Source: a virus. Taken from it: DNA of 43,478 bases. The translations under genes and the position numbers were made by a program. How positions within the stretch are numbered: position 1 is the stretch's first letter; every line of letters starts with the position of its first letter. The notes beneath the pieces were generated by a model. The model searched no databases, was not told the origin of the DNA, and worked only from the letters and a program-made list of their open reading frames with translations. This document shows, piece by piece, positions 882-20,030 of the stretch. The stretch spans positions 1 through 43,478 of IMG/VR virus record IMGVR_UViG_3300042879_003157; one strand, 5' to 3'.

Positions 882-1176
882 GCATTTCAAAATTAGGTTC
901 GCGGTTGTCATACTCGTATTGTAAAATATCTTGAATAAAATATTCATTTTCAATAAAATCATTAATAGCATTTAAAATTTCTATAGTCATTTTATGAGTA
1001 AGAAGTTTTCCATTTTCATAAGTAGAATAAATATCTTTTTCTAAAATTACATTAAATTCACCGACCGTATCATTATGCAAATTAACATCTATATCATCAT
1101 ATTCAATTTCTAAATAAAAAATAATTGTTTGACCTTTGTAATTTATTTGCCTACTTACATCTATATTTGTTATCAT
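877..1176 (-). CDS. Hypothetical protein (99 aa)
   Basis: This acidic protein of 99 residues has an N-terminal half of probable beta strands (YKGQTIIFYLEIEYDD) and a helical C-terminus (MTIEILNAINDFIENEY). Its ATG overlaps the stop of the upstream DnaA-like gene in an ATGA junction, so the two are probably co-translated. I recognise no family. A gene for the DnaA-like protein's partner or antagonist is possible, but nothing in the sequence shows it. Confidence 0.6.
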   Translation of the reverse strand: MITNIDVSRQINYKGQTIIFYLEIEYDDIDVNLHNDTVGEFNVILEKDIYSTYENGKLLTHKMTIEILNAINDFIENEYFIQDILQYEYDNREPNFEMP

Positions 1177-1640
1177 AAATTAAAAGTTTTATTGTAATAC
1201 AATTCAAAATTATTGCTTTTTTGTTTATAACTCATTAAAAGTTCTTCTTTGTGTTTTTTTTTAATTGCATCAATAATTGCTTTATCAATTTTATAAATAA
1301 AACCAAACATATTAATGCATTCTAAAACATTCATTTTATCATTATATTCTAAATTATTATCTTCATATTTTGGTATATCTTCAATCCAATTATATATTTT
1401 TCCTTTAATGAAATAATCATCATTAATTGAATTTTTAGCATGGTAAATAATGCTGTGATCTTTATTTACATGTTGACAAATAATTTTTAATCGCAAATCA
1501 GCTTTAACACGTAAAAGATAAACTAATGCATAACGAGCTTGTACAATTTTATGTTTACTACTTTTACTTCGTATTTGATCAATATTTATCCCTGTTTTTT
1601 TAGTTATTTCTTGGGTATAATAATCAATAATTGGTTTCAT
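1173..1640 (-). CDS. DnaA domain IV-like DNA-binding protein
   Basis: Residues about 15-75 match the C-terminal DNA-binding domain of the bacterial initiator DnaA. A basic helix (IRSKSSKHKIVQARYALVYLL) is followed by the signature region KDHSIIYHAKNSI, equivalent to the RDHSTVxxA DnaA-box recognition motif. There is no AAA+ ATPase domain, so this is a stand-alone domain of 155 residues with an unknown helical C-terminal extension. In DnaA this domain recognises 9-bp DnaA boxes. Here it could mark a phage origin, compete with host DnaA or repress transcription; these roles are inference. It begins a two-gene unit with the 99-aa gene. Confidence 0.75.
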   Translation of the reverse strand: MKPIIDYYTQEITKKTGINIDQIRSKSSKHKIVQARYALVYLLRVKADLRLKIICQHVNKDHSIIYHAKNSINDDYFIKGKIYNWIEDIPKYEDNNLEYNDKMNVLECINMFGFIYKIDKAIIDAIKKKHKEELLMSYKQKSNNFELYYNKTFNL

Positions 1641-2915: not shown

Positions 2916-3025
2916 TAGTCAGGACAGGATTCGAACCTGTAAGTGCTGAACCAACGATGGGTCTTACATTCAGCTTAACTCCCATCACGCTCTGTGGTTG
3001 CGTTTACCAATTCCGCCACCTGACT
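2916..3025 (-). tRNA. Leucine-type tRNA-like element A (110 nt)
   Basis: The shell is a good class II tRNA: acceptor AGTCAGG/CCTGACT (7 of 7 pairs), D-arm GCG-GAATTGGTAAA-CGC and T-arm ACAGG-TTCGAAT-CCTGT. Between the D-stem and T-stem are 59 nt, where about 32 would be normal. AACCA/TGGTT can pair as an anticodon stem, but it closes a 41-nt loop holding a GATGGG/CCCATC helix. No normal 7-nt anticodon loop is visible, so no anticodon is assigned. CCA is not encoded. It shares both ends with three other elements to the right. Confidence 0.5.
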
Positions 3026-3225
3026 ATGGTGACACCCTAATTTATCCAACTTACAGGTGTCTTGGCTGTCCTCTATATAAGAGTTAGGACTAATCATTTG
3101 ACTTGGCGAGGTGCAGGCTGACTTGCCCTGGAGTTCATCCCTATACTCCATACGTGAACCATGTAGAGAACTACTCTACTTCTCATCATCCAGGTCTGGA
3201 CTATCTGTTAGTTACACAGAACGTG
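3026..3225 (-). other. Structured non-coding spacer between tRNA-like elements
   Basis: This 200-base stretch has no credible reading frame but many hairpins: GACACC/GGTGTC at 3031-3061, GTCCT/AGGAC at 3068-3090 with an inner CTCT/AGAG, TGGAGT/ACTCCA at 3129-3150, GTAGAG/CTCTAC at 3163-3179 and CCAG/CTGG at 3190-3199. It is richer in GC than the surrounding genes. Similar but shorter structured spacers fill 3361-3418 and 3589-3676. Strand is assumed from the flanking tRNA-like genes. It could be a processed non-coding RNA or spacer RNA of a polycistronic precursor. Confidence 0.4.
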
Positions 3226-3360
3226 TAGTCAGGACAGGATTCGAACCTGTGGTGCAAGTTATTAGGTGAAGTAATACTCTTCATTCATCAGACTGAGCTG
3301 AACCTCTCATTACCTTGCCGACTTGTAGTAGTTGCGTCTAACCAATTCCGCCACCTGACT
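3226..3360 (-). tRNA. Leucine-type tRNA-like element C (135 nt)
   Basis: It has the same acceptor (AGTCAGG/CCTGACT), the same T-arm and nearly the same D-arm (one extra base, GAATTGGTTAGA) as the neighbouring elements. The region between D-stem and T-stem is 83 nt and unrelated in sequence to the inserts of its neighbours. A long helix GCAAG-GTAAT pairing with ATTAC and CTTGC can form within it. No standard anticodon arm can be assigned with confidence. ORFs across this locus are chance frames over the RNA. Confidence 0.5.
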
Positions 3361-3418
3361 ATATCCTCGTCTTTCCGAGATGTCATCCCTTTTATTTGGT
3401 AAGGATGGGAAACCCTTG

Positions 3419-3588
3419 TAGTCAGGACAGGATTCGAACCTGTATGCCATTTGTGGTTTTCTCTTCCATTTACGGTTGCAACCGTACCACCAGCGCTTTG
3501 CCACTCCTGCACGATGTCCGCTTACGACCAGCATGCAATATCAACCTTGCGAGTTAATGTGTGCGTTTACCAATTCCGCCACCTGACT
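3419..3588 (-). tRNA. Leucine-type tRNA-like element D (170 nt)
   Basis: The same acceptor, D-arm and T-arm shell encloses 119 nt, the largest insert of the four. Near its 3' side is a perfect palindrome TACGGTTGCAACCGTA. It resembles an anticodon arm with a 6-nt loop reading GCA and is preceded by GGAGTGGCAAAGCGC, which looks like part of a second D-arm. The element may therefore be one tRNA fused into another. No anticodon is assigned. Confidence 0.45.
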
Positions 3589-3676
3589 ATGTTGAGGATG
3601 AGAAGTCCTCTGTGCTGTAGAGGTAAGTTGCAGAAGCGACTCTCTTGACATTCCTTTCTCAAGGGAACAACACAAG

Positions 3677-3786
3677 TAGTCAGGACAGGATTCGAACCTG
3701 TATGATAAGTAGCAATATTTTTGGGAAGTGACAATATACTTACTTATCTATTCACTTCTAGCGTCTACCAATTCCGCCACCTGACT
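3677..3786 (-). tRNA. Leucine-type tRNA-like element B (110 nt)
   Basis: This is the fourth copy of the shell: acceptor AGTCAGG/CCTGACT, D-arm GCG-GAATTGGTAGA-CGC and T-arm ACAGG-TTCGAAT-CCTGT. The 59-nt middle has the same length as in element A but unrelated sequence. Two competing helices are possible: GAAGTGA/TCACTTC (7 bp) and GATAAGTA/TACTTATC (8 bp). A canonical 7-nt anticodon loop is not visible. It is the first of the group in the direction of transcription. Confidence 0.5.
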
Positions 3787-12344: not shown

Positions 12345-12843
12345 TATACAAAATGGGGTTATTGTTCCTACTGAGCATTGCTATAGTTTAGAAACTTTAA
12401 AACTTATTATGGATAAATACCCTAATAGTTATTTGTCTATTTATAAGTATTTGTTTTATATGACATGTCCTAACCCAGATTTAAATCCATTTTTTAATGT
12501 GCCTGAACATGAAAAAGAAGATTTAATAATTAATGAAGTTGATTTTAATGAATCTTTAGATGATAGTGTTATTCAACAAGCTTTAATTTTTTGTGAAAAA
12601 TTATATGAAACTCCCGCGTATAGAGCGTATAAAGGAATTAAATCAATGCTAGATAGATTAGCTAAATATATGGAAACAACAAATATTGAACATGGTAGAG
12701 ATGGTAATATTAATTCGTTAGTTAATGCGGCTGCTAAATTTGAACAAATTAGACAGTCTTATAAAGGCGCTTTTAATGATATGAAAGAAGAGCAAGAAAG
12801 TCATGTAAGAGGCGGACAAGGATTAGCTTATGATCAACTCTAA
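12325..12843 (+). CDS. Conserved crAss-type protein ahead of terminase (172 aa)
   Basis: This helical, acidic protein of 172 residues has a central YETPAYRAYKGIKSMLDRLA and a Gly-rich tail (HVRGGQGLAYDQL). Position and helical composition would suit a small terminase subunit, but no N-terminal helix-turn-helix is obvious, so this is only a suggestion. It overlaps the nuclease by 20 bases and the next gene by 1 base. Confidence 0.55.
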   Translation: MVIKLFDIQNGVIVPTEHCYSLETLKLIMDKYPNSYLSIYKYLFYMTCPNPDLNPFFNVPEHEKEDLIINEVDFNESLDDSVIQQALIFCEKLYETPAYRAYKGIKSMLDRLAKYMETTNIEHGRDGNINSLVNAAAKFEQIRQSYKGAFNDMKEEQESHVRGGQGLAYDQL

Positions 12844-13472
12844 TGGCATATTTAAATCATAATTTACCTCTCACTCCTTGTTTTATAAGGAATGAATTTT
12901 TGTTTAATCATGAAAAAGGGTTTGGTGAATACACTGTAGCTAATTTACACTCTGTTTCTTCAATAGAGGGTATGGTACCTTTATTTGAAGCTTTTTTAGA
13001 AAATGGGGTGAATTGGACTCGTAGGCCAATACACGCTTTTTGTTGGAAAAAAGATGCGCAAATTTTACCTCTCACGGAACATGTTTATTGGGATAGTTTT
13101 AGCCCGTATATTGATGTTCAAGTAAGAGCAAGACTCTACCCATTAAGTGCGGAATTAATTTCCATTAGTGGAGTAAAAAGAAAAGGGGTGTATATGTTTA
13201 CTTTAGATTGGTCGCATGAAAATAAAACAATGTTAGATACAAATTTTTCTGAAACGTATGAGCATAAGTGTGGGCATGTTTTTAAAATGGATAATGGTAA
13301 TTATTTTATTTATCCTAATAACAGGATTATATGGATTGATAAAGCTTATACATTTAATAGGATTAATGCTAACCCAGGTTATAAAATTGATAAGAATTTG
13401 TATAGTGTTGATTCTGGCCGCGGTTATTTTACTGATGATAATTATATCACGGACTTTAAAAAAGATATATGA
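12843..13472 (+). CDS. Conserved hypothetical protein (209 aa)
   Basis: This 209-residue protein starts MAYLNHNLPLTPCFIRNEFL and is rich in aromatic residues, with predicted strands throughout (IDVQVRARLYPLSAELISI, GVYMFTLDWSHEN, NYFIYPNNRIIWID). I take it as a conserved protein of the pre-terminase set in related phages but know no function. It overlaps the genes on both sides by 1-4 bases, so it is tightly coupled to the SET-domain gene. Confidence 0.6.
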   Translation: MAYLNHNLPLTPCFIRNEFLFNHEKGFGEYTVANLHSVSSIEGMVPLFEAFLENGVNWTRRPIHAFCWKKDAQILPLTEHVYWDSFSPYIDVQVRARLYPLSAELISISGVKRKGVYMFTLDWSHENKTMLDTNFSETYEHKCGHVFKMDNGNYFIYPNNRIIWIDKAYTFNRINANPGYKIDKNLYSVDSGRGYFTDDNYITDFKKDI

Positions 13473-18881: not shown

Positions 18882-20030
18882 ATGAATTCAGTTAATACAA
18901 CAGTGGAAAAAGTAGATATTGATATTGATGAATTATTTTCTGGTGCAGTTTCTGCTAATAGTGTAACTACTACAGAAGATGTTCCAAAAAATCTTTTTTC
19001 TAGGCCGGAAGCCCCGGATTTTTCTTTTACAGAAAAAGAACCTGCAGAAACTACAGAAACTGTAGAAACTACAGAAATTTCTGAAATAATTGAAAAAATT
19101 GATGAAGAAGAAAAACCAAAAAACAATATTTACAATGTTTTTTCTAAACTAATTAAAGAAGATAAATTAATTCCTTTTGATGATGATAAACCAATAGAAG
19201 AATATAGTATTAAAGATTGGCAAGATTTAATTGAAGCTAATTTAGAAGAAAGAGTGAATCAAGTAAGAAAAGAAACTCCAAAAGAATTTTTTGAATCTTT
19301 ACCACAAGAATTACAAATTGCAGCAAGATATGTTGCTGATGGTGGTTCAGATTTAAAAGGTTTGTTTGCTACATTAGCTCAAGTAGAAGAATCAAGAGAG
19401 TTAGATGTTTCTAACGAAAGAGACCAAGAATTAATTATTCGAGATTATTTGCGAGCAACAAATTATGGCAATGAAGATGAAATTTCTGAAGAAATAGAAT
19501 TGTGGAAAGATTTAGGAAAACTTGAACAACAAGCTTCTAAATTTAAACCTAAGTTAGATGCAATGAAAGAAAAAATTGTTGTTAGAAAACTTCAAGAACA
19601 AGAAATGAAGAAAAGACAACAAGAAAATGCAGCTAAAGAATATATGGATAATGTGTATAATGCATTAAAAGATGGTGAAATAGATGGTGTAAAACTTGAT
19701 AAAAAAACACAAAGTTTTCTTTATAATGGATTAGTGCAACCTAATTATCCTTCAGTTAGCGGAAGAAACACAAATTTATTAGGACATTTATTAGAAAAAT
19801 ATCAATTTGTAGAACCTAATTATTCTTTAATAACAGAAGCTTTATGGCTGTTATCAGATCCAAATGGATATAAAATAAAAATTATGGAAAAAGGTTCTCA
19901 AAAAGCAATTGAATCTACAGTTAGAAAATTAAAAACTGAAGAATCAAATAAAAATACAAGTTTTGTAGATTCAGAACCAGAATCAAAAAGAAAAATTCAA
20001 CGACCAACAAATATTTTCAAACGTTTTTAA
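18882..20030 (+). CDS. Putative scaffolding/assembly protein (382 aa)
   Basis: This acidic, low-complexity protein of 382 residues sits between the portal and the major capsid protein, the usual site of scaffold genes. The N-terminus is Thr/Glu-rich and disordered (about 1-85). The centre is helical (EELWKDLGKLEQQ-like segments, then KLQEQEMKKRQQENAAKEYM), and the C-terminus is short and basic (SKRKIQRPTNIFKRF), as scaffolds often use to bind the shell. I see no protease motif. An 89-base AT-rich gap separates it from the portal gene. Confidence 0.65.
   Translation: MNSVNTTVEKVDIDIDELFSGAVSANSVTTTEDVPKNLFSRPEAPDFSFTEKEPAETTETVETTEISEIIEKIDEEEKPKNNIYNVFSKLIKEDKLIPFDDDKPIEEYSIKDWQDLIEANLEERVNQVRKETPKEFFESLPQELQIAARYVADGGSDLKGLFATLAQVEESRELDVSNERDQELIIRDYLRATNYGNEDEISEEIELWKDLGKLEQQASKFKPKLDAMKEKIVVRKLQEQEMKKRQQENAAKEYMDNVYNALKDGEIDGVKLDKKTQSFLYNGLVQPNYPSVSGRNTNLLGHLLEKYQFVEPNYSLITEALWLLSDPNGYKIKIMEKGSQKAIESTVRKLKTEESNKNTSFVDSEPESKRKIQRPTNIFKRF

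Follow-up and report, generated by a model that had tools for sequence, protein, structure and literature searches.

The tRNA cluster of phage T4 encodes two stable RNAs, C and D, that are not themselves tRNAs. In the laboratory, tRNAs have been engineered as scaffolds in which the acceptor, D- and T-arms are kept and a foreign structured RNA replaces the anticodon stem-loop, and tmRNA joins a tRNA-like end to pseudoknots, with no anticodon arm (PMC3753655). A tag reading frame is a further part of tmRNA. Phages also carry large structured RNAs of unassigned function, GOLLD and ROOL, near their tRNA islands (PMC12286853). Type III antitoxin RNAs such as ToxI and CptI are small pseudoknots of diverse sequence, encoded as tandem repeats and processed by their toxin, and a pseudo-ToxI RNA of phage TE neutralizes the ToxIN toxin (PMC5086642). 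Finally, phage-encoded tRNAs counter defenses that cut tRNAs (PMC10264068), and the Septu system cleaves the variable loop of tRNA-Tyr (PMC13096335). Here, we describe a set of phage elements in which the frame of a tRNA-Leu encloses variable inserts predicted to be structured.

Four tRNA-Leu-framed elements in a crAss-like phage

The window, by which we mean the entire 43,478-base virus record analyzed here, is placed among the crAss-like phages by its terminase and portal genes, and the best named relative of its portal protein is that of Leptolyngbya phage Lbo-JY46. G+C content is ~40-50% over most of the island holding the elements vs roughly 11-30% just outside it. Elsewhere in the window, the small protein encoded at 1173-1640 (minus strand) matches the DnaA C-terminal DNA-binding domain in Pfam (2.3e-10), and a gene at 12843-13472 (plus strand) matches a PHROG annotated as ferredoxin (3.8e-45).

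An earlier note on this DNA had drawn attention to four minus-strand elements with a common acceptor stem and T-arm and an almost constant D-arm, and we find them as it described, at 2916-3025 (element 1), 3226-3360 (element 2), 3419-3588 (element 3) and 3677-3786 (element 4). Their 3' part, ACAGG-TTCGAAT-CCTGT-CCTGACT-A (25 nt), is identical in all four, the 5' part, AGTCAGG-TG-GCG-GAATTGG...ACGC, varies by 1-2 differences, and each element has a complete 7-bp acceptor stem. Between these parts lie inserts of 59 nt (2941-2999), 83 nt (3251-3333), 119 nt (3444-3562) and 59 nt (3702-3760), exactly the lengths first given, and the inserts have no kinship with one another. Chance is excluded as the origin of the frame, because a scanner for this shell, run on 578 kb of shuffled sequence, found none. 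The elements thus framed carry the acceptor, D-arm, T-arm and core tertiary bases of a canonical tRNA-Leu; the anticodon arm with a 7-nt loop and a Leu anticodon is absent, and 0 unspliced normal arms occur in 149 insert families of the wider class described below. ARAGORN called none of the four elements and reported no tmRNA in the window, the Rfam tRNA model passed its threshold only at 3226-3360 and at a separate element (2454-2549), and no other RNA family in Rfam matched the window.

Predicted folds and their conservation

The inserts had first been described as forming long helices. Helices are indeed predicted, but they often cross as pseudoknots rather than forming simple long hairpins. 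In element 1, the helices GATGGG/CCCATC and GCTGAA/TTCAGC cross; element 2 combines a small hairpin, a variable-arm-like helix (GCAAG/CTTGC) and inner hairpins with loop pairing; and in element 4, GAAGTGA/TCACTTC forms a pseudoknot with GATAAGTA/TACTTATC. When nested folding alone is considered, the elements give weak z-scores of -0.3 to -2.5, modest values that are expected if the helices cross.

The predicted folds are supported by compensatory changes among orthologues; this support is strong for elements 1, 2 and 4 and weaker for element 3. Element 1 has diverged orthologues in L247, L058 and L094; across four orthologous sequences, 100% of pairs are standard and 11 of 27 are changed on both sides, these lying in the acceptor and T-stems and in the two insert helices that cross. 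None of 500 shuffles scored as high, and sliding the partner strands abolishes the signal. The 83-nt insert of element 2 recurs without change (83/83) in L258, L261, L262 and L263, with flanks unlike those of the window, and a diverged version in L005 has 6 pairs changed on both sides, distributed over five helices. Diverged orthologues of element 3 (L005, L362, L363, L364) have 3 such pairs in two insert helices, with one summary measure no better than shuffles. An identical copy of element 4 is present in L090, and variants of it in L096, L249, L250, L251 and L254; in its distant relatives L006, L255 and L068, GAAGTGA/TCACTTC is replaced by GACCA/TGGTC or GACCC/GGGTC while GATAAGT/ACTTATC and the topology are kept, a replacement that was read by eye, the automatic alignment misplacing that helix. 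The crossing helices of element 1 covary and the topology of element 4 persists; set beside the H-type pseudoknot of type III antitoxin RNAs, the linkers differ from those of the classic form. The recurrence of inserts in independent contigs with other flanks, identically in four contigs for element 2 and in one for element 4, together with the diverged orthologues of elements 1 and 3, also rules out the metagenomic assembly artifact against which the earlier note had cautioned.

Related elements across the class, mostly 85-185 nt in size, have a common architecture. By simple stacking energies and with mononucleotide shuffles as the control, a helix (energy below -6) ends exactly 2 nt before the T-stem, the end point of the variable arm in class II tRNAs, in 48 of 95 insert clusters vs 12.8 for shuffled sequences; in the equivalent test of 150 insert families, this helix has a crossing partner at p <= 0.05 in 46 (7.5 expected) and a nested partner in 32. 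The remaining 104 families lie above p 0.05 for a pseudoknot in this simple test, and some members are plain hairpins; pseudoknots are thus a frequent feature of the inserts, though not one that all of them share. Loop 3 is A-rich (45% vs 33%). With respect to core chemistry, a Leu-type D-loop and A14 are seen in the class, and among viral members with a Leu-type D-arm nucleotide 48 is T in 166/175 and the discriminator is A73 in 148/175, the latter vs 60/61 for normal phage tRNA-Leu. Of 204 elements, 14 encode CCA, and in some members (L080 3159-3291, L084 4246-4378) the D-arm is not of the Leu type.

Distribution, turnover and neighboring RNAs

A first pattern scan found at least 120 stretches, and the class now comprises at least 325 distinct long-insert, tRNA-framed elements in at least 207 viral loci; these abundances are lower bounds, and since the scan selects the frame by design, finding its sequence conserved does not in itself count as evidence. 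Forty-two bacterial contigs also matched; about half of these were judged by eye to be normal tRNA genes that are duplicated, gapped or adjacent, and the remainder are mostly from Bacteroidota, where the two neighborhoods inspected contain phage genes (NinG; ERF recombinase). In the isolated Bacteroides phage BS-TP2 (PQ571275), the 153-nt gap between the DUF2303 and NinG genes is occupied by an element, at about 19550-19657, that the annotation lacks. Searched by BLAST against isolated phages, single elements matched only BS-TP2 and fragments, and a plasmid search gave one weak match. Two further observations concern isolated phages: BS-TP2 (L264 324-405) has another unusual tRNA-like RNA, whose frame is non-Leu and whose anticodon loop measures 16 nt, and in Leptolyngbya phage Lbo-JY46 (L124 48041-48142) a tRNA-framed element with an insert of 49 nt has likewise escaped annotation.

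In large phages, the elements form arrays adjoining nearly complete tRNA sets, and normal tRNA-Leu genes coexist with them. L100 and L080 have 23/23 tRNA species in common and 0 inserts; L112 and L080 have 25 tRNAs and 2 inserts in common. The inserts thus turn over like accessory cassettes. The cassette array proposed in the earlier note is accordingly supported in part, by this strong turnover beside conserved tRNA arrays, by the identical inserts with other flanks and by the tRNA-Gln chimera described below. Simple decoration of tRNA arrays was considered and dropped, because single elements adjoin recombination genes in temperate phages. Across 119 nonredundant loci, no protein neighbor of the elements is present at more than 11, and the neighborhoods thus give no pointer to a target.

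Other tRNA-like features lie beside the four elements, all on the minus strand. The RNA at 2454-2549 (Rfam tRNA, 44.6 bits) is tRNA-shaped with a non-Leu frame, and a 31-nt insert replaces its anticodon loop; an identical insert is found in L241, where the acceptor stem differs, and a variant in L261/L262. Archaeal-type splicing of this RNA was rejected by eye, no register giving T33 with an intact stem. At 2557-2627, the 5' part of a tRNA-Gln(TTG) is joined in the T-loop to the 3' part of a shell, leaving the acceptor unpaired; since L100, L080, L112 and L005 have an intact tRNA-Gln followed by a shell, the chimera is explained by deletion between two T-loops. In L249, the phage array that includes an element 4 orthologue also contains a GOLLD RNA (1293-1710, 262 bits).

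A second constant frame occupies 3594-3673, between elements 4 and 3 and, like the spacers described below, on the minus strand; it likewise holds a variable payload between constant ends. One end is GTGTTG plus a GAGA-containing hairpin, TTCC-CTTGAGAAA-GGAA; the other is CAACAC plus GAGGACTTCTCATCCTC, the window having CAGCAC in place of CAACAC, followed by the hairpin GAGGA-CTTCTCA-TCCTC. By eye, the two constant loops, which are invariant, have the potential for a six-base pairing, TGAGAA/TTCTCA. The same ends enclose different payloads in about 105 viral stretches, immediately precede an AGTCAGG-type shell in 55 of 111 copies, and hold pseudoknot-like payloads in 13 of 39 clusters (2 expected). 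Exchange of payloads between the tRNA-Leu shell and this second frame was considered and rejected, their comparison revealing no match beyond 13 nt. The spacer at 3026-3225, between elements 2 and 1, has 77% identity over 196 nt to L307 and partial matches elsewhere, and short stems in which changes on both sides were seen by eye; it is, as judged from these comparisons, a third conserved structured RNA. The spacer at 3361-3418 ends just before element 2 in the hairpin CTCGGAAAGACGAG, which also precedes tRNAs or shells in L005, L080, L123 and L305. Neither the second frame nor the spacers match Rfam.

Interpretation and relation to known systems

Taken together, the comparisons show a conserved, apparently non-decoding tRNA frame with exchangeable inserts that are predicted to fold. 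Of the explanations in the earlier note, the one that fares best is a tRNA scaffold for variable structured RNAs, backed by covariation and by the many unrelated inserts in one frame. We see about an even chance that the elements are members of a widespread phage RNA class, a natural scaffold in which the anticodon and variable arms of the tRNA-Leu frame have given way to a variable structured RNA, commonly a pseudoknot. The framed RNAs would be matured by RNase P, RNase Z and the CCA enzyme of the host, yielding stable RNAs incapable of decoding; the frame would serve as the carrier that stabilizes the insert, and the insert as the effector. The repeated frame may also be the site of the recombination that exchanges inserts, and each knot might imitate or block a host RNA-binding factor. 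The second, unrelated frame with its variable and often pseudoknotted payloads lends support to the scaffold, while the A73 bias and Leu core count against it, as they could reflect a need for charging that a pure carrier would not have. As to function, we tentatively favor counter-defense, a guess more apt to be wrong than right, because the inserts turn over and because an antitoxin pseudoknot is known to be mimicked by a phage RNA (PMC5086642). Against it, Rfam gave no match that would tie an insert to an antitoxin or sRNA already described. More speculative is a broader scheme, on which we would put about one chance in four, whereby at least two constant RNA frames, the tRNA-Leu shell and a kissing-hairpin clamp, carry hypervariable pseudoknot effectors that are swapped as cassettes in tRNA islands and directed against host defenses.

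That the elements are ordinary tRNA-Leu genes with small unrecognized introns, as had also been suggested, would fit the insert position between the D- and T-arms, but we give this almost no credence: in elements 1, 2 and 4 (element 3 being too long for the procedure), no excision gives back a tRNA-Leu anticodon arm together with a variable arm, whereas a positive control was restored, and normal tRNA-Leu genes are present alongside. Across the 149 insert families, 8% pass the same test vs 2% of shuffles, in a set that includes duplicated normal bacterial tRNA-Leu genes. Group I or II introns were dismissed by reasoning, the inserts being too short. Functionless relics scrambled by recombination are very improbable; the chimera at 2557-2627 demonstrates that such recombination occurs, but compensatory changes and the 83/83 identity of one insert across contigs speak against decay.

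The elements might instead be non-decoding leucyl-tRNAs, charged by LeuRS, that feed non-ribosomal leucine transfer or occupy LeuRS, EF-Tu or the ribosome; the Leu-type D-loop, A14, A73 and T48 all point this way, yet A73 is lost in 15% of elements vs 1/61 normal phage tRNA-Leu, the non-Leu D-arms of L080 and L084 do not fit, and the diverse, individually conserved inserts are left unexplained, so that we judge this unlikely. Decoys or resistant substitutes facing defenses that bind or cut tRNAs, the knot tying up regions hit by anticodon or variable-loop nucleases, would accord with the adjoining large tRNA arrays and with the phage tRNAs and Septu activity cited above (PMC10264068, PMC13096335). 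Without an anticodon, however, an element can neither mimic the substrate of an anticodon nuclease nor replace a lost tRNA; the decoy for anticodon nucleases envisaged in the earlier note fails for want of an arm to cut, and the wider proposal is improbable. We consider it quite improbable, too, that the elements belong as domains to a longer ornate RNA, similar in kind to GOLLD and ROOL, into which tRNA modules are built. Conserved structured spacers, the GOLLD RNA in the array of L249 and the occasional presence of tRNAs within GOLLD linkers (PMC12286853) are in its favor; against it, GOLLD and ROOL covariance models find no match in the window, and elements also occur singly, as in BS-TP2, and with unrelated spacers.

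Natural RNAs that borrow a tRNA frame without decoding and hold covarying inserts, and that do so across hundreds of phage sequences, would add a new kind to the non-coding RNAs of phages. This novelty rests on Rfam 15 and on a literature search of partial coverage, which found no prior description; a paper beyond that coverage may exist. Most framed elements are missed by tRNA finders or labeled as odd or ordinary tRNAs, and they bear on the question of why phages carry tRNA islands. Their presence in an isolated Bacteroides phage makes the proposals testable, and the inserts constitute a ready-made library of natural RNA knots.

Among known systems, type III antitoxins and the pseudo-ToxI mimic resemble the inserts as small pseudoknots of diverse sequence (PMC5086642); the phage elements, however, have no tandem-repeat organization, constant protein neighbor such as a toxin gene, or Rfam match. 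GOLLD and ROOL are likewise structured phage RNAs near tRNA islands, and one GOLLD shares an array with relatives of our elements, which differ in being short, tRNA-framed and hypervariable and in having no sequence match to either. The resemblance to tmRNA lies in a tRNA-like end with pseudoknots and no anticodon arm, but no tag reading frame was found between the tRNA-like ends in the window, and the phage elements keep a full D-arm. Closest in design is the engineered tRNA scaffold (PMC3753655), which keeps the same three arms and replaces the anticodon stem-loop; it is a laboratory construct, whereas the phage elements are natural, use a tRNA-Leu frame, frequently carry pseudoknots and have the variable arm replaced as well.
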